Shown here piece after piece: positions 5,711 through 10,804 of a stretch of DNA of 40,584 nt. Below the pieces are notes generated by a model. The model saw only the letters and a program-made list of their open reading frames with translations. It was not told the DNA's origin and did no database searches. The position numbers were made by a program, and so were the translations under genes. Numbering within the stretch: the first letter of the stretch is position 1; each line of letters opens with the position of its first letter. This DNA is from Lentisphaeria bacterium (GTDB lineage: Bacteria > Verrucomicrobiota > Lentisphaeria > Victivallales > UBA1829), in assembly GCA_017503545.1 (NCBI GenBank), contig JAFVSW010000280.1:1-40584 (forward strand), written 5' to 3'.

Positions 5711-5871
5711 GCTGAAAAACCTTATATTTTGTTTTAAGTTGTTGTACTCTTGCGTACTATATCATATGAAACAAACATTTTCAAGAATAAAAATCCATTT
5801 TTTTTTGAATATGTTCTGTCTTTTCAGCCAATTAATGAGTTACATAGAACAGAGAAGGAGATTGAAAAAGT

Positions 5872-6228
5872 ATGAGTATGGAAAATCTTATGTCAGGCAT
5901 GTTCGGTGCATTGCTTGTCACCGTGTTTGATTTTGTGCTGCTGCAGAAACAAACAAAAATGGAAAACCGGCTGAATGTGCTGGAAGATGAAAAACTGAGC
6001 AGTCTGGAACGGAAACTGGACAAACATGTGGAAGCGGACCGGAGTCAGGAGATTCTGACGGAACTGCGGAATCTGGGTGGCGCAGTGATGCGTCTTTCGG
6101 ATTCCACTGCCCGGTCATTGGAAAATATTGCGAGTCAGAATTCCCGGCTTGCTGCCCACGATTTGTATTTTCAGGAATTAAACGAAAACGTAAAAGAACA
6201 TATCAGGATCTATCATCATGGCAAGTAA
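5872..6228 (+). CDS. Small membrane-anchored coiled-coil protein of a Mu-like packaging cassette
   Basis: A 118-aa protein with one N-terminal hydrophobic stretch (GALLVTVFDFVLL, residues 11-23) followed by a charged coiled-coil region (about 28-60). This architecture matches the DUF2730 proteins encoded just ahead of the packaging genes in Mu-like phages (the Mu gp25 position), but that assignment rests on size, topology and order rather than clear sequence identity. AGAAGGAG lies 11 bp ahead of the ATG; a second ATG two codons in is possible. It is the first of five plus-strand genes surrounded by minus-strand genes, and its end overlaps the next gene by 11 bp. Confidence 0.75.
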   Translation: MSMENLMSGMFGALLVTVFDFVLLQKQTKMENRLNVLEDEKLSSLERKLDKHVEADRSQEILTELRNLGGAVMRLSDSTARSLENIASQNSRLAAHDLYFQELNENVKEHIRIYHHGK

Positions 6229-6514
6229 TAAACAATTCCGTATCCGGCGGGCGATTGTCCGCACGATTTATGACTATACCTGCGGGCAGGATCTGGAGAC
6301 CGTTTTGTGTTCCCCGGAACTGATGTTGGAAAATCCTTCCGCAGAAGCCGCCATGGCAGAGTGGCTTACGTTGATCGATGCCGGATTTCTTGTCCCTCTG
6401 CCCGGTTATGACCGTAAAGTTTGCAAACTGGCGGTATCCATCCGCCGGGGAATGGATGCATCCGGCGGTATCCTTCCCCGGCATCCGATATTGTTCGGAC
6501 ATCGGGTGATGTGA
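6218..6514 (+). CDS. Small winged-helix-like protein of the Mu-like cassette
   Basis: A 98-aa basic protein whose start overlaps the previous gene. The pattern RRAIVRTIYDYT...AAMAEWLTLIDAGFLVPLPG...KLAVSIRRGMD looks like a short winged helix: helix, recognition helix, then a wing ending in a strand. Mu-like phages carry a protein of similar size (gp26 position) between the DUF2730 gene and the small terminase, so it is probably the positional counterpart. I see no diagnostic catalytic motif. Its stop is followed 2 bp later by the next start, so translation is likely coupled. Confidence 0.65.
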   Translation: MASNKQFRIRRAIVRTIYDYTCGQDLETVLCSPELMLENPSAEAAMAEWLTLIDAGFLVPLPGYDRKVCKLAVSIRRGMDASGGILPRHPILFGHRVM

Positions 6515-6516
6515 TT

Positions 6517-7113
6517 ATGGCGCGGAATCCATATTACCGATTGAGTTGGAAAGTGCGGAGCCGTATTCTGGAATGTCTGAAAGAGGATTTGACGGTGGAG
6601 GATATGGTTGCCGATCCCGTTATTTCCGCCGCACTGCAGGAGAAAAAGATTCTATTGACGGATGATATTCTGGAAGGTATCCGCCGGAGCCGGGAATATC
6701 TCACCTACAAAGAACGGGCGGAAAAAGACGCGGAAAGCCGATCCGCGGAAATGATCGCTGCCGCCGTTTTGAATCATTCTTCCGCCCTGAAAAATGTCAC
6801 GGATAATGCAAAATATGAATTGGCATTGGTCGTGCGTGATCTTCTTTCCGATACCTCGGATTTGCCGGATGTGACGGAAAAGATTAAAGCGGTGCGTGCA
6901 TTGGCGCAATGTCTTGCTTCTCTTGGTACGGCGGCACTGGAACGGAAGATTGCGCGGCGTGACACATTGATCGCCGGCTTGAAACAGGAAAATCTCCGTC
7001 TGGAATCGGAAATACACCGTCTGGAAGCCGAATTGCAATTATGGAAAGAGCGTGCAGGCACAGCGGATGCCGCACGGATCGTTACGGAATTAAACAAACA
7101 GGTCGGCTTATGA
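6517..7113 (+). CDS. Mu gp27-like (DUF3486-like) small terminase subunit candidate
   Basis: The frame is open from 6421, but the start beginning MARNPYYRLSWKVRSRI at 6517 fits best: it follows the previous stop by 2 bp and has GGTGAT upstream, giving 198 aa. The N-terminus (basic, then a helical DNA-binding-like segment to about residue 60) and the long helical remainder resemble DUF3486 proteins such as Mu gp27, the small terminase subunit that recognises phage DNA. A strong coiled coil (about 150-185: LKQENLRLESEIHRLEAELQ split over heptads) would support oligomerisation. It overlaps the large terminase gene by an ATGA junction. Homology to gp27 is weaker than the gp28 match of the next gene and is partly argued from order. 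Confidence 0.65.
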   Translation: MARNPYYRLSWKVRSRILECLKEDLTVEDMVADPVISAALQEKKILLTDDILEGIRRSREYLTYKERAEKDAESRSAEMIAAAVLNHSSALKNVTDNAKYELALVVRDLLSDTSDLPDVTEKIKAVRALAQCLASLGTAALERKIARRDTLIAGLKQENLRLESEIHRLEAELQLWKERAGTADAARIVTELNKQVGL

Positions 7114-8558
7114 AATTTCTACCTTATCAGAAACGTTGGATCCTGGATGATTCTCCGTTGAAATTATATGAAAAGACCCGGCGTGGCGGCATTACCTTTG
7201 CCACCAGTTACCGGGCGGTGATCAAATGTTTGAAACGGGGAGACGGTTTCATCCAATGGGTTTCCAGCCGGGATGAAGTCACGGCAAAAGAATTCATTAC
7301 GGATTATGTGGCAAAATGGGCAAAACTCGCCAATACATCCGTCCGCGGACTGGATGGTTCCTGTGTGGAGATCGTGGATGAAAAGCACGGTATTTCTGCG
7401 CGTACCGTCAAATTCCGCAATGGGGCGCGAATCGTTTCCTTGAGTTCCAATCCGTTAGCGTTTGCGGGCAAAGGCGGCGATGTCCTTGTCGATGAATGGG
7501 ATCTGCACCCTGATCAGGCTGCCGTCTACGACATGGCGTTCCCGTGCATTACCTGGGGCGGACAATTGGAATTGGTTTCCGCGTACAGTGCATCCGGGTC
7601 TGATCAAACGGAATTTGCACGGCTTTGTACGGCTTGCCGGAACGGGGAACGCCCGGATATCAGTTTTCACCGGACGACGATTCTGGATGCCGTAGAAGAA
7701 GGGTTTGTAGAGACGGTGAACGAAGTCAAAGCGGAACGGGGAATGCCGCCTTTGACCAGAGAAGAATTTCTCGCCGGGTTGGAACAGGGCTGCCGTTCCC
7801 GGACAGCATACGAAAGTCAATATTTATGTATTCCCAACCGGACCGGGGGAGAACAATTGATTCCGCCCGGAGATTTACGCAATGCCATGTGTAATGAACG
7901 GAATTTTTTGCGTTTTCATAATGACGATTGTGACCGGATCCCAGCGGATTGGATGGATTATCGATTCTGGCAGGAACAGCTTCCGTATGAACAATATGTT
8001 TTTGGATATGATATTGCGCGAACCGGAGACTTATCGTCGATTTGGATTATTTCCGTGGAGGGTGATCTTCTTTATTCGGCGGCAGTAATCACGTTGAAAA
8101 ACTGTCCGTTCGGGATACAGAAGAATATCATACGTGCCATTCTGGATTCATCCTGTAATATCAGCGGTTGTGCAGATAAAACGGGTCTTGGCATGGCGGT
8201 TTGCGAAGAGTTGCAGGAACAATATCCGGACCGGTTCAGCGGGCTGAATTTTTCTGCTGAAAAATTTTCTCTTGCTATCGGCTTGAAAACGGCATTTGAA
8301 CAGAAATATATTCGAATACCGTCATCCGAACCGGAAATTGCGGCAGATCTTGCGGGAATCCGGAAAAGTGCTTCGCTGTCCGGCAAATTATGTTTTACGG
8401 AATCGAAAAATCTGCTGCTGCCATCCAGTCATTGTGATATTGCCTGGAGTTGCGCATTGGCAATCCGTGCTGCATCGGAACAGATTCCGGCTGCGGATGC
8501 CGCCTTTACCGATGAACTTGAATCAACCTCTACCTTTGAAAGACGTATTTTACGATGA
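7110..8558 (+). CDS. Mu gp28-like terminase large subunit
   Basis: Starting at the ATGA junction (7110) the product is 482 aa. The N-terminal YQKRWILDDSP and the deviant Walker A YEKTRRGGITFA (20-31) are characteristic of Mu gp28-type large terminases. Walker B is DVLVDEW (124-130, Asp128-Glu129), with a coupling-like SAYSASGS (157-164). The RNase H-like nuclease domain has YDIARTGDLSS (Asp301), ADKTGLG (Asp356) and HCDIAWS (Asp443), the expected three acidic residues, so the ATPase and nuclease both look intact. In phages this motor cuts and pumps DNA into a procapsid through a portal. Here no portal, capsid, protease, tail, integrase or transposase gene is present on either side, and the next gene is not a portal. 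Confidence 0.9.
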   Translation: MKFLPYQKRWILDDSPLKLYEKTRRGGITFATSYRAVIKCLKRGDGFIQWVSSRDEVTAKEFITDYVAKWAKLANTSVRGLDGSCVEIVDEKHGISARTVKFRNGARIVSLSSNPLAFAGKGGDVLVDEWDLHPDQAAVYDMAFPCITWGGQLELVSAYSASGSDQTEFARLCTACRNGERPDISFHRTTILDAVEEGFVETVNEVKAERGMPPLTREEFLAGLEQGCRSRTAYESQYLCIPNRTGGEQLIPPGDLRNAMCNERNFLRFHNDDCDRIPADWMDYRFWQEQLPYEQYVFGYDIARTGDLSSIWIISVEGDLLYSAAVITLKNCPFGIQKNIIRAILDSSCNISGCADKTGLGMAVCEELQEQYPDRFSGLNFSAEKFSLAIGLKTAFEQKYIRIPSSEPEIAADLAGIRKSASLSGKLCFTESKNLLLPSSHCDIAWSCALAIRAASEQIPAADAAFTDELESTSTFERRILR

Positions 8559-9238
8559 AACAGAAACTATCCAAACAACAGCTCCGGATCCTGGCAGATT
8601 CGGAAGATTTTCAGAAGATCATTGCGACCGATCCGGTTCTGGATTTTCTGGAATCCCTGCAATATAACGAGCGGAATGAAATTTTGAATTTACAGGAAAA
8701 TCTGGGATTTCCGATTGTCTTCGGTAAATTATCCACCCGTCCGCTGACTCCGGCTAAATGGGCTTTTCTCTGGTTGAAAAAAAGTCCATATACCAGAGTG
8801 ATGGATGTCTTGAAAAAGGATGCTGTATATTTTCTTGCCGTTCTTTCTGCAAAAACACTGTCAGAAATCCCCCCATTGGAAGAAATCCGCAAACGTGCGG
8901 CAATTCCTGTTACTGAACTGCATGAACAAATTACGGCTTACCTGCGTCGCTGTTTTTCCCCGCTTCAATTATTGCCTGCCTCCGGAAATAAAGAACAGCC
9001 AATCCGTTTTGATGCGGATTGGCTGTTCCGGATCTGCTCCATTGCGGCGCAGGAAAGTCATACCCCCATCCGGCAGGTCATGCACGGAATGTCGTTAAAT
9101 CAGGTCTGCTGGCTGTATATTGATTACCGCCGTAAATTTGACCGTCACAACGCCATCCGACGCCGTCACAGTGGAGAAATTGCAGCGCGGATGATGGATC
9201 GTGCGTTGGAATTGGGGGTTGAATTTTTTAAATCATGA
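8555..9238 (+). CDS. Uncharacterised 227-aa protein at the portal position of the Mu-like cassette
   Basis: It begins at an ATGA overlap with the terminase stop, so it belongs to the same translationally coupled unit. Mu-like phages encode a portal of about 500 aa (DUF935) here; this protein is less than half that length and shows no portal features. It is helical: LTPAKWAFLWLKKSPYT (about 64-80) and a C-terminal segment with FRICSIAAQESHTPIRQVM followed by a basic stretch with RRKFDRH and IRRRHS. The pattern of a Pro-containing helix followed by an aromatic-rich helix vaguely recalls phage tail-assembly chaperones, but I would not assign that function. The stop codon (9236-9238) directly abuts the stop codon of the convergent esterase gene. 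Confidence 0.7.
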   Translation: MKQKLSKQQLRILADSEDFQKIIATDPVLDFLESLQYNERNEILNLQENLGFPIVFGKLSTRPLTPAKWAFLWLKKSPYTRVMDVLKKDAVYFLAVLSAKTLSEIPPLEEIRKRAAIPVTELHEQITAYLRRCFSPLQLLPASGNKEQPIRFDADWLFRICSIAAQESHTPIRQVMHGMSLNQVCWLYIDYRRKFDRHNAIRRRHSGEIAARMMDRALELGVEFFKS

Positions 9239-10804
9239 TTACCAGTTATCCGTATGGAACGGAACCATGGGCAGACCGGCGGCGTTGTACATATTCACGC
9301 CGTCGGGATATGCCCGGTATGCGTAACGGACGGCAACCGGAGTTTTGACTTTATCGGAAGAAAGAATGACTTTTTCGCCTTCGATTTTTGCATCCGCCCA
9401 ATACCAGACTTTATCTGCACCGGCGATGGCAAAATGTGCCGGTTTGGCATCGGTTTTCACCGGTTTTTCCAAACCGGTCTTGTTCGCAGTCATCAAACCT
9501 TTTGCATAATCAAAGGTCAGGATGGCTTTTCCATCTTTGATTTCCATGGATTTGAAAAGCGGTCCGCTTACCACAATATCTTTTTTACCATATACATCCC
9601 GCAATGCCCAGAGAGCCAGACGTTCCCCGACATCATATTTATTTTTCGGGTGGATATCGTTCTGCATTCCAATATCAATCGTACAAGCCATACCGCTTTT
9701 GGGAATATCCATTGCTTTTCTCTGTGCTTCACGGAGCAAAGCATATCCGTTACCGCCTTTTGGATCGTTTGTTGCCTTCGTGTATGCTGCCAACTGGACA
9801 AAGTAGAACGGAAAGTCATCTTTCCAGGCGGCACGCCAACCATTAACAAGAGCGTGCATATAGTGATAATATTTCATACCATCACGCCAGTTGGAGCATC
9901 CCTGATACCAGAGCGCACCTTTGATTGGGAACCGGACGATCGGTGCCATCATAATATTATATCTGTAACCGGCGGGCGGATACGGTCTCAAACCGGGGGC
10001 AGCAGGCGCGGGCTCGCCATTTTTCAATGCTGCTTCGGCTTTAGCGACCCATGTATTAGCACGTTTGATCAAACCCTGAATGTGTTTTTTGTATTCCGGT
10101 GTACCGGGAACAAACGGCTTCACGTTCTGCCAATCTTTCTTCAGCGCAGGAATATCTTTATATGCGGTCGGAACAATGAACGGCTGGATCGGACTGCCGC
10201 TCCAGTTATCATCCAGAATACCGATCGGCACACCCGTTTCAATATGAATTCGGCGCGCAAAATAATATCCGGCAGCGGTATACGCTTTGACTGTAGCGGG
10301 GGAGCAGACTGACCATCTTGTTTGTACCAGGATGTTCTCAGCCGGGATGTCCGATGCAGTCCGCATGACTTTGATTCGGCGGATCTGGGAATATTTCTTT
10401 GCTTCTTTGATATGTTCATTGCCATTGATTACTTTCCAGGCGAACGACATTTCCATATTGGATTGTCCCGCACAAAGCCAAATATCACCTACCAGAATGT
10501 TTTTCAGCGTCACCGTATTTTTTCCCTTCAAAGTCATAGTCTGCCCTTTTGCATTGGCTTTCATCGGGGCAAGTGTGACTTCCCATTTTCCGTTTGCATC
10601 GGCTTTCGTTTTCAATGTTTGACCGCCGAATTTGACTTCGATCGCTTCTCCGGGATCGGCTTTGCCCCAGACAGGAACGGTTTTTTCCCGTTGAAGCACC
10701 ATGTTGGAATCGAAGATCGTTGCCGGTATTACATTGGCATAAGCAACGGAACAAAGTCCCATTGCGGCGGCTGTCAGACTGCATAAAGTACGAAACTGTC
10801 TCAT
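9239..10804 (-). CDS. Secreted sialate O-acetylesterase-like esterase
   Basis: A 521-aa protein starting at the ATG at 10804; a TTG codon at 10810 is also in frame. A signal peptide (RTLCSLTAAAMGLCSVAYA) predicts export. An immunoglobulin-like N-terminal region (TIFDSNMVLQRE, VPVWGKADPGE) precedes the SGNH-type domain with GQSNME (catalytic Ser) and a late DIHPKNK segment (Asp and His of the triad), as in sialate O-acetylesterases that remove acetyl groups from sugar hydroxyls. The usual WYQGESN motif reads WYQGCSN, a Glu-to-Cys change worth noting. AGGA upstream is the likely ribosome site. The gene converges with the phage-like cassette with no intergenic base and no visible terminator between them. 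Confidence 0.88.
   Translation of the reverse strand: MRQFRTLCSLTAAAMGLCSVAYANVIPATIFDSNMVLQREKTVPVWGKADPGEAIEVKFGGQTLKTKADANGKWEVTLAPMKANAKGQTMTLKGKNTVTLKNILVGDIWLCAGQSNMEMSFAWKVINGNEHIKEAKKYSQIRRIKVMRTASDIPAENILVQTRWSVCSPATVKAYTAAGYYFARRIHIETGVPIGILDDNWSGSPIQPFIVPTAYKDIPALKKDWQNVKPFVPGTPEYKKHIQGLIKRANTWVAKAEAALKNGEPAPAAPGLRPYPPAGYRYNIMMAPIVRFPIKGALWYQGCSNWRDGMKYYHYMHALVNGWRAAWKDDFPFYFVQLAAYTKATNDPKGGNGYALLREAQRKAMDIPKSGMACTIDIGMQNDIHPKNKYDVGERLALWALRDVYGKKDIVVSGPLFKSMEIKDGKAILTFDYAKGLMTANKTGLEKPVKTDAKPAHFAIAGADKVWYWADAKIEGEKVILSSDKVKTPVAVRYAYRAYPDGVNMYNAAGLPMVPFHTDNW

Follow-up and report, generated by a model that had tools for sequence, protein, structure and literature searches.

Gene transfer agents (GTAs) are particles that bring fragments of a cell's own DNA to other cells, and few of them have a known genetic basis. 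Those that do come from Alphaproteobacteria and Brachyspira, less defined agents are described in Desulfovibrio and Methanococcus, and GTA genes are often spread across several loci, some of which hold one or two genes. In the Brachyspira agent BhGTA/VSH-1, a structural cluster is accompanied by a single conserved terL outside the cluster, and the system is vertically inherited (PMC9662315). Here we analyze a 40,584-nucleotide stretch of DNA (the window), which is the entire contig C294 of a metagenome-assembled genome (MAG; G000, 4.06 Mb in 353 contigs) of a Victivallales bacterium. The window carries a five-gene cassette, named A, B, C, TerL, and E, that encodes a predicted large terminase. 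We propose, with a probability of roughly 0.7, that the cassette is the packaging locus of a domesticated, dispersed GTA-like element derived from a B3/Mu-like transposable siphophage.

The system resembles BhGTA in having a structural cluster and a lone terL elsewhere. Unlike BhGTA, its head genes are of the Mu/B3 type, its host belongs to the Lentisphaeria, and its particles are predicted from genes. With RcGTA of Rhodobacter capsulatus and its relatives it shares several loci, TerL with a candidate TerS, purifying selection, and, in a related genus, co-divergence with the host, whereas Portal_Mu/gpT head genes of the Mu type set it apart. With B3-like transposable siphophages and Mu it shares the families of TerL (33% identity to B3), portal, protease, capsid, and gp36, and the order A-B-C-TerL. 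In contrast to these phages, MuA is not found in the genome, gpF is not in the located clusters, and three separate loci hold the genes. PBSX of Bacillus subtilis is a domesticated phage that packages host DNA; it is contiguous, and it kills rather than transfers DNA. A second type of TerL in the family (type-2, described below) resembles the PBSX terminase family (TIGR01547, below the cut-off), but the genes here are dispersed and those of PBSX form one block.

Head and tail genes at other loci

The window holds no portal, head, or tail gene, as the initial annotation stated, but the genome does, and the description of the cassette as an orphan does not hold. Profile searches of G000 find one intact portal gene (4.4e-153) and one intact capsid gene (1.2e-120), both on contig C178. 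There, portal, protease, decoration, capsid, gp36, and a gene in the position of the major tail protein (MTP; 'MTP-position' names a gene by its place only) follow in a row between host genes, beside a divergent helix-turn-helix (HTH) regulator. The locus matches the families Portal_Mu (2.3e-73), Mu-like_Pro (3.4e-29), gpT (1.9e-44), and Gp36 (3.2e-6). The end of contig C214 carries a 231-aa gene and then the start of a gene of the tail257 family, which together are the start of the tail locus in G000. G000 lacks the contiguous A-B-C-TerL-portal-head-tail block of Mu/B3-like phages; its portal, head, and tail genes are on other contigs.

The relatives of G000 are Victivallales/Lentisphaeria of the rumen and gut, and the nearest of them, G001, is a second species of the same genus (g1; such codes are the genus and family labels of the search tool). 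G001 holds the same three gene sets, each between host genes, with the cassette on C31, the head genes on C107, and the tail genes on C200, and the five-gene content of its cassette is identical to that of the window. In both species the head locus has a gene nearby that we take to be RsmE-like. A search for MuA at E<=1e-5 gives no match in G000 but one in each of 19 of the 149 genomes searched, and gpF is absent from the located clusters.

Eleven head and packaging genes are intact in both G000 and G001. Between the two species synonymous sites are saturated, and pN/pS is 0.33 for TerL, 0.34 for portal, 0.20 for capsid, and 0.59 for E. The identities of TerL (65%) and capsid (75%) stand beside 76% for the core gene SecDF. 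In addition, base composition matches each host: the cassette has a GC content of 48.6% in a 45% host in G000, and the contigs in G001 are at 55.5-57.5%. The limited nonsynonymous change, the identities beside that of SecDF, and the host-matched composition argue that both lineages have long carried these genes under constraint. In accordance with the earlier suggestion of selection on an intact motor, the pair shows purifying selection and the sister species holds a copy. A search for further copies finds TerL as a single copy in G000 and the five-gene unit in G001. The genus shows neither of the findings that the initial annotation named as refutations, namely close relatives in which the cassette is the margin of a larger, decayed prophage, or a pseudogene.

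The cassette and its genes

TerL matches the Terminase_6C profile (PF17289, E=1.7e-8) and the PHROG terminase family phrog_2 (E=5.7e-25). In an alignment of 16 relatives, K17, R23, G26-I27, D127-E128, D300, D355, and D442 are invariant or nearly so, in agreement with the preserved ATPase and nuclease residues of the initial annotation. We take K17/R23..G26-I27 to be a deviant Walker A motif, D127-E128 to be Walker B, and D300, D355, and D442 to be the RNase H-type nuclease residues. The closest TerL of a named phage is that of Pseudomonas phage B3 (33%), and the closest genome homologue is in G001. Judged by its sequence, TerL is an intact Mu/B3-type large terminase.

None of the four small proteins (A, B, C, and E) could be placed convincingly in a family of Pfam, PHROG, or NCBIfam. 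Because of this, the names DUF2730-, gp26-, and gp27-like given to the first three rest on gene order and on homology to genes of Mu-like prophages. Both Mu-like prophages and G001 have homologues of A and B at the corresponding places upstream of TerL. The order A-B-C-TerL recurs among homologues in many prophages and the sister species, which excludes a chance origin of the cassette.

Gene C is a candidate small terminase, a function suggested by its position (that of Mu gp27) and its predicted build. The predicted structure consists of an N-terminal helical, HTH-like bundle followed by a long coiled coil (mean predicted local distance difference test score, pLDDT, 82.7), and a fold search of the PDB gave no match for it. 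Known GTA small terminases have lost their DNA-binding domain; no such loss is seen in gene C, which keeps the predicted N-terminal helices. The net charge of gene C fails to separate phage copies from domesticated copies. A scan with PADLOC gave one weak match, to gene C only (E 0.005), and the option of a defence module is not supported.

Gene E is best placed by comparison with full phages. Related bacteria carry full Mu-like prophages with the order A-B-C-TerL-portal-(gpF)-protease-decoration-capsid-gp36, then, further on, the MTP-position gene, E, and the tape measure. Relatives of gene E in these phages thus lie ~6 kb further downstream, between the MTP-position and tape-measure genes, and so the window cassette joins packaging genes to a gene from just before the tape measure. 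Tail-assembly chaperones of siphophages sit just before the tape measure. The predicted structure of gene E (pLDDT 84) has weak viral matches only, tail assembly proteins among them, and a PDB search gave no match. On this sequence comparison gene E appears to be a tail gene, tail-assembly-chaperone-like. Its earlier assignment to the Mu gp29 region is replaced, since its homologues adjoin the tape-measure gene. Of 160 terminase loci retrieved from viral contigs and other genomes, that of the sister species is the only one with TerL next to E.

The five coupled plus-strand genes proposed for the window are all present (Table 1), with the junctions as described: A and B overlap by 11 bp, B and C are separated by 2 bp, and C/TerL and TerL/E each share ATGA. 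A simple script called the open reading frames (ORFs), so that the starts of genes, and the small genes themselves, are approximations. TerL starts at 7110, and position 7041, listed as its start among the ORFs, is just an in-frame ATG further upstream. A divergent host gene for an FAD-dependent oxidoreductase lies on the far side of the upstream intergenic region, and the stop codon of gene E abuts a convergent host gene starting at 9239.

Table 1 Positions of the cassette genes and the upstream region in the window
Feature	Coordinates	Strand	Description
Intergenic region upstream of operon	5711..5871	+	Shine-Dalgarno-like AGAAGGAGA stretch before A
Gene A	5872..6228	+	118 aa; N-terminal hydrophobic stretch; small phage gene opening the packaging operon; 61% identity to G001
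Gene B	6218..6514	+	98 aa; gp26-position phage gene; 65% identity to G001; omega 0.115 in the g1 pair
Gene C	6517..7113	+	198 aa; gp27-like candidate small terminase (TerS); directly before TerL
TerL	7110..8558	+	482 aa; predicted ATPase and RNase H-like nuclease; motif residues intact
Gene E	8555..9238	+	227 aa; tail-assembly-chaperone-like protein

Related systems in the family

In genus g6, TerL is carried by 12 of 13 species, and in those 12 TerL and portal are on different contigs. In the species examined, TerL is followed by protease, decoration, capsid, gp36, and tail genes; gene C stays with the portal gene at a second locus, which is the only one retained in G006. The g6 loci are internal to contigs that reach ~290 kb, and the neighborhoods of the loci are conserved (G027 compared with G028). 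The dN/dS values are 0.055 for TerL, 0.06 for capsid, and 0.11-0.17 for portal, and dS equals that of neighboring host genes. In Mantel tests over six species, each of six genes varies in step with host genes (r 0.72-0.86, p 0.024-0.053). The TerL and head genes of g6 evolve with host genes.

A more distant, type-2 lineage is present in genera g2, g3, g4, g5, g8, and g9 and in family f7. Its head genes are clustered as portal-protease-(decoration)-capsid(-gp36) and have host genes on either side (L156-L168), and its TerL (~437 aa) stands alone, flanked by host genes and apart from the head cluster (L195-L204, L164). In G041, portal and capsid are on different contigs, and in g3 a third locus carries the MTP-position gene, E, the tape measure, and tail genes. 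From these sequences, the type-2 set appears to be a second GTA-like lineage in most other genera of the family.

Three species of genus g10 (G017, G023, and G026; L064, L065, L216, and L221) share one chromosomal site with a Mu-like cluster that lacks transposase and gpF and is contiguous as far as the contigs show. In G026 the cluster is largely lost, with genes A to E missing and just a remnant of the tail remaining. Decay therefore does occur in the family. In G017, g10 genes A, B, and C and the first TerL residues end contig C98 (L221:7542-8991) and the remaining TerL ends C21; this cluster is split by assembly, unlike the g1 and g6 loci. In genus g32, near-alike A-B-C-TerL-portal-protease-decoration-capsid-gp36 clusters occur in three species (L032, L033, and L034; G119, G096, and G062), with no gpF or MuA seen, and may be a further domesticated form. 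In family f1, 23 of the 29 portal-bearing genomes have no MuA match (hand count).

In the portal tree, the type-2 set forms one clade (Shimodaira-Hasegawa-like approximate likelihood ratio test, SH-aLRT, 100), as do the g1 pair (100) and g6 (99), and g1 and g6 lie among phages. Type-2 portals and capsids group within genera in the portal and capsid trees. A single common domestication of g1 and g6 is unsupported by these trees, its rejection not being firm (portal approximately unbiased test, AU, p=0.075). Several independent domestications in the family are the simplest reading of the trees; replacement of one element by another is a possible alternative.

Other loci were met in the same searches. 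MAGs of Puniceicoccales (L111-L137) have many TerL-portal-protease clusters, several with a ~700-aa upstream gene that is a possible transposase; in three (L116, L119, and L128) TerL has no portal found nearby despite 6-10 kb of following sequence. A prophage of G073 (L047:7744-9030) encodes a gpF-like minor head protein with an ADP-ribosyltransferase-like domain (PF03496, 3.8e-14).

Weighing the interpretations

The definition of GTAs by Kogay et al. 2022 has six features (PMC9662315). Particle proteins derived from caudoviricetes are indicated by homology, one of the two ways that the definition allows, through the TerL, portal, protease, capsid, and gp36 matches. A fully endogenized genome, often at multiple loci, is seen as three loci in G000, G001, and g3 and as two in g6. 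Vertical inheritance or co-diversification is seen within g6 and, by genus grouping, in type-2; the window's genus offers two species with rearranged flanks, and across genera there are several lineages. The other three features of the definition, namely packaging of largely random host DNA, an own genome that does not fit into particles as a whole, and delivery of the packaged DNA to other cells, are matters for experiment. Two features thus have sequence evidence, one is seen in relatives, and three are experimental; therefore, we call the element GTA-like rather than a proven GTA. Of the options raised by the initial annotation, the GTA component is the one that gains from the purifying selection, the sister-species copy, and the remaining particle genes elsewhere in the genome. 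Packaging of the element's own complete genome would be implausible, given its dispersal over separate loci.

If the element works as a GTA, the packaging, head, and tail loci would be switched on together under some condition. The products of C and TerL would dock on the portal of the capsid encoded by the head locus, the capsid would be filled with host DNA by headful packaging, and gene E would assist tail assembly. Cells would then lyse, and the particles would inject host DNA into relatives.

Several observations weigh against a GTA-like element. Particles, expression, and transfer are predicted from the genes. G000 is a MAG with 5.57% contamination, and its tail locus breaks off where contig C214 ends. 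G000 and G001 have different genes beside the cassette, and the host genes that flank it in the window are scattered on three different contigs in G001, which also has one Mu-like transposase, alone on a separate 3.3-kb contig. In the window's genus, neither a lysis gene nor a confident tape-measure gene is identified, and no uptake gene is identified. A promoter motif shared upstream of the packaging, head, and tail loci of G000 and G001 was sought, and the best matches are no better than in shuffled sequence. In addition, g1 and g6 are not one clade in the portal or the capsid tree.

Some of these points would fit a domesticated phage-derived particle with another job, either a PBSX-like killer or a DNA-filled structure without gene transfer. 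Its gene content and selection would appear identical, the lack of identified lysis and uptake genes suits it, and the type-2 TerLs match the PBSX-family model TIGR01547 at 9.4e-25, below the model cut-off. However, dispersed genes do not resemble the single prophage-like block of PBSX, and an intact motor with tail genes suits DNA delivery at least equally, so that we consider such a particle unlikely. It is also rather improbable that the loci are the remains of a decaying prophage, fragmented by rearrangement and without selection as a unit. Eleven genes intact in both g1 species, with constrained nonsynonymous change at saturated synonymous divergence, the identical five-gene content, and the low dN/dS in g6 speak against decay, whereas the differing flanks speak for it, as does the contiguous g10 version, which three species have at one site and G026 has mostly lost.

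The different sites of the cassette in the two g1 species could also be explained by a mobile cassette or a phage satellite that travels with helper phages. No integrase or transposase is recognized among the cassette neighbors, TerL is single-copy, base composition is host-like in each species, TerL and capsid identities roughly track that of SecDF, and the TerL-E adjacency is in no other of the 160 loci. Both options, which the initial annotation had offered, are thus very improbable, and we disfavor satellite, mobile cassette, and plain prophage decay alike. An ordinary active prophage split by errors of assembly or binning is scarcely credible: the MAG is fragmented (353 contigs), but the cassette and the head locus are each flanked on both sides by host genes within one contig, and in g6 the split is repeated in 12 species inside long contigs.

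The GTA-like reading of the cassette leads to a broader proposal, to which we give even odds: domestication of Mu/B3-like transposable phages would have happened repeatedly in Victivallales (g1, g6, type-2, and perhaps also g10 and g32), with the transposase and gpF lost on each occasion and the packaging, head, and tail genes in most cases scattered around the chromosome. Functional dispersed-locus GTAs would then be regular in these gut bacteria, the first from Lentisphaeria and from a transposable-phage ancestor. The titles and abstracts of open-licence papers report no GTA from Lentisphaeria or Victivallis, a scope that does not allow a claim of priority, and a 2026 gut survey of capsid-packaged DNA leaves the names Lentisphaeria and Victivallis unmentioned.

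If true, the finding would add a new origin, descent from transposable phages, and a new host group, the Lentisphaeria of the rumen and gut, to the GTAs. Such genes would evade prophage finders that require a contiguous block. Full Mu-like phages, a contiguous transposase-less cluster, two-locus and three-locus forms, and solo TerL forms would stand side by side as stages, and how and why phages turn into dispersed host genes would become testable by comparison.

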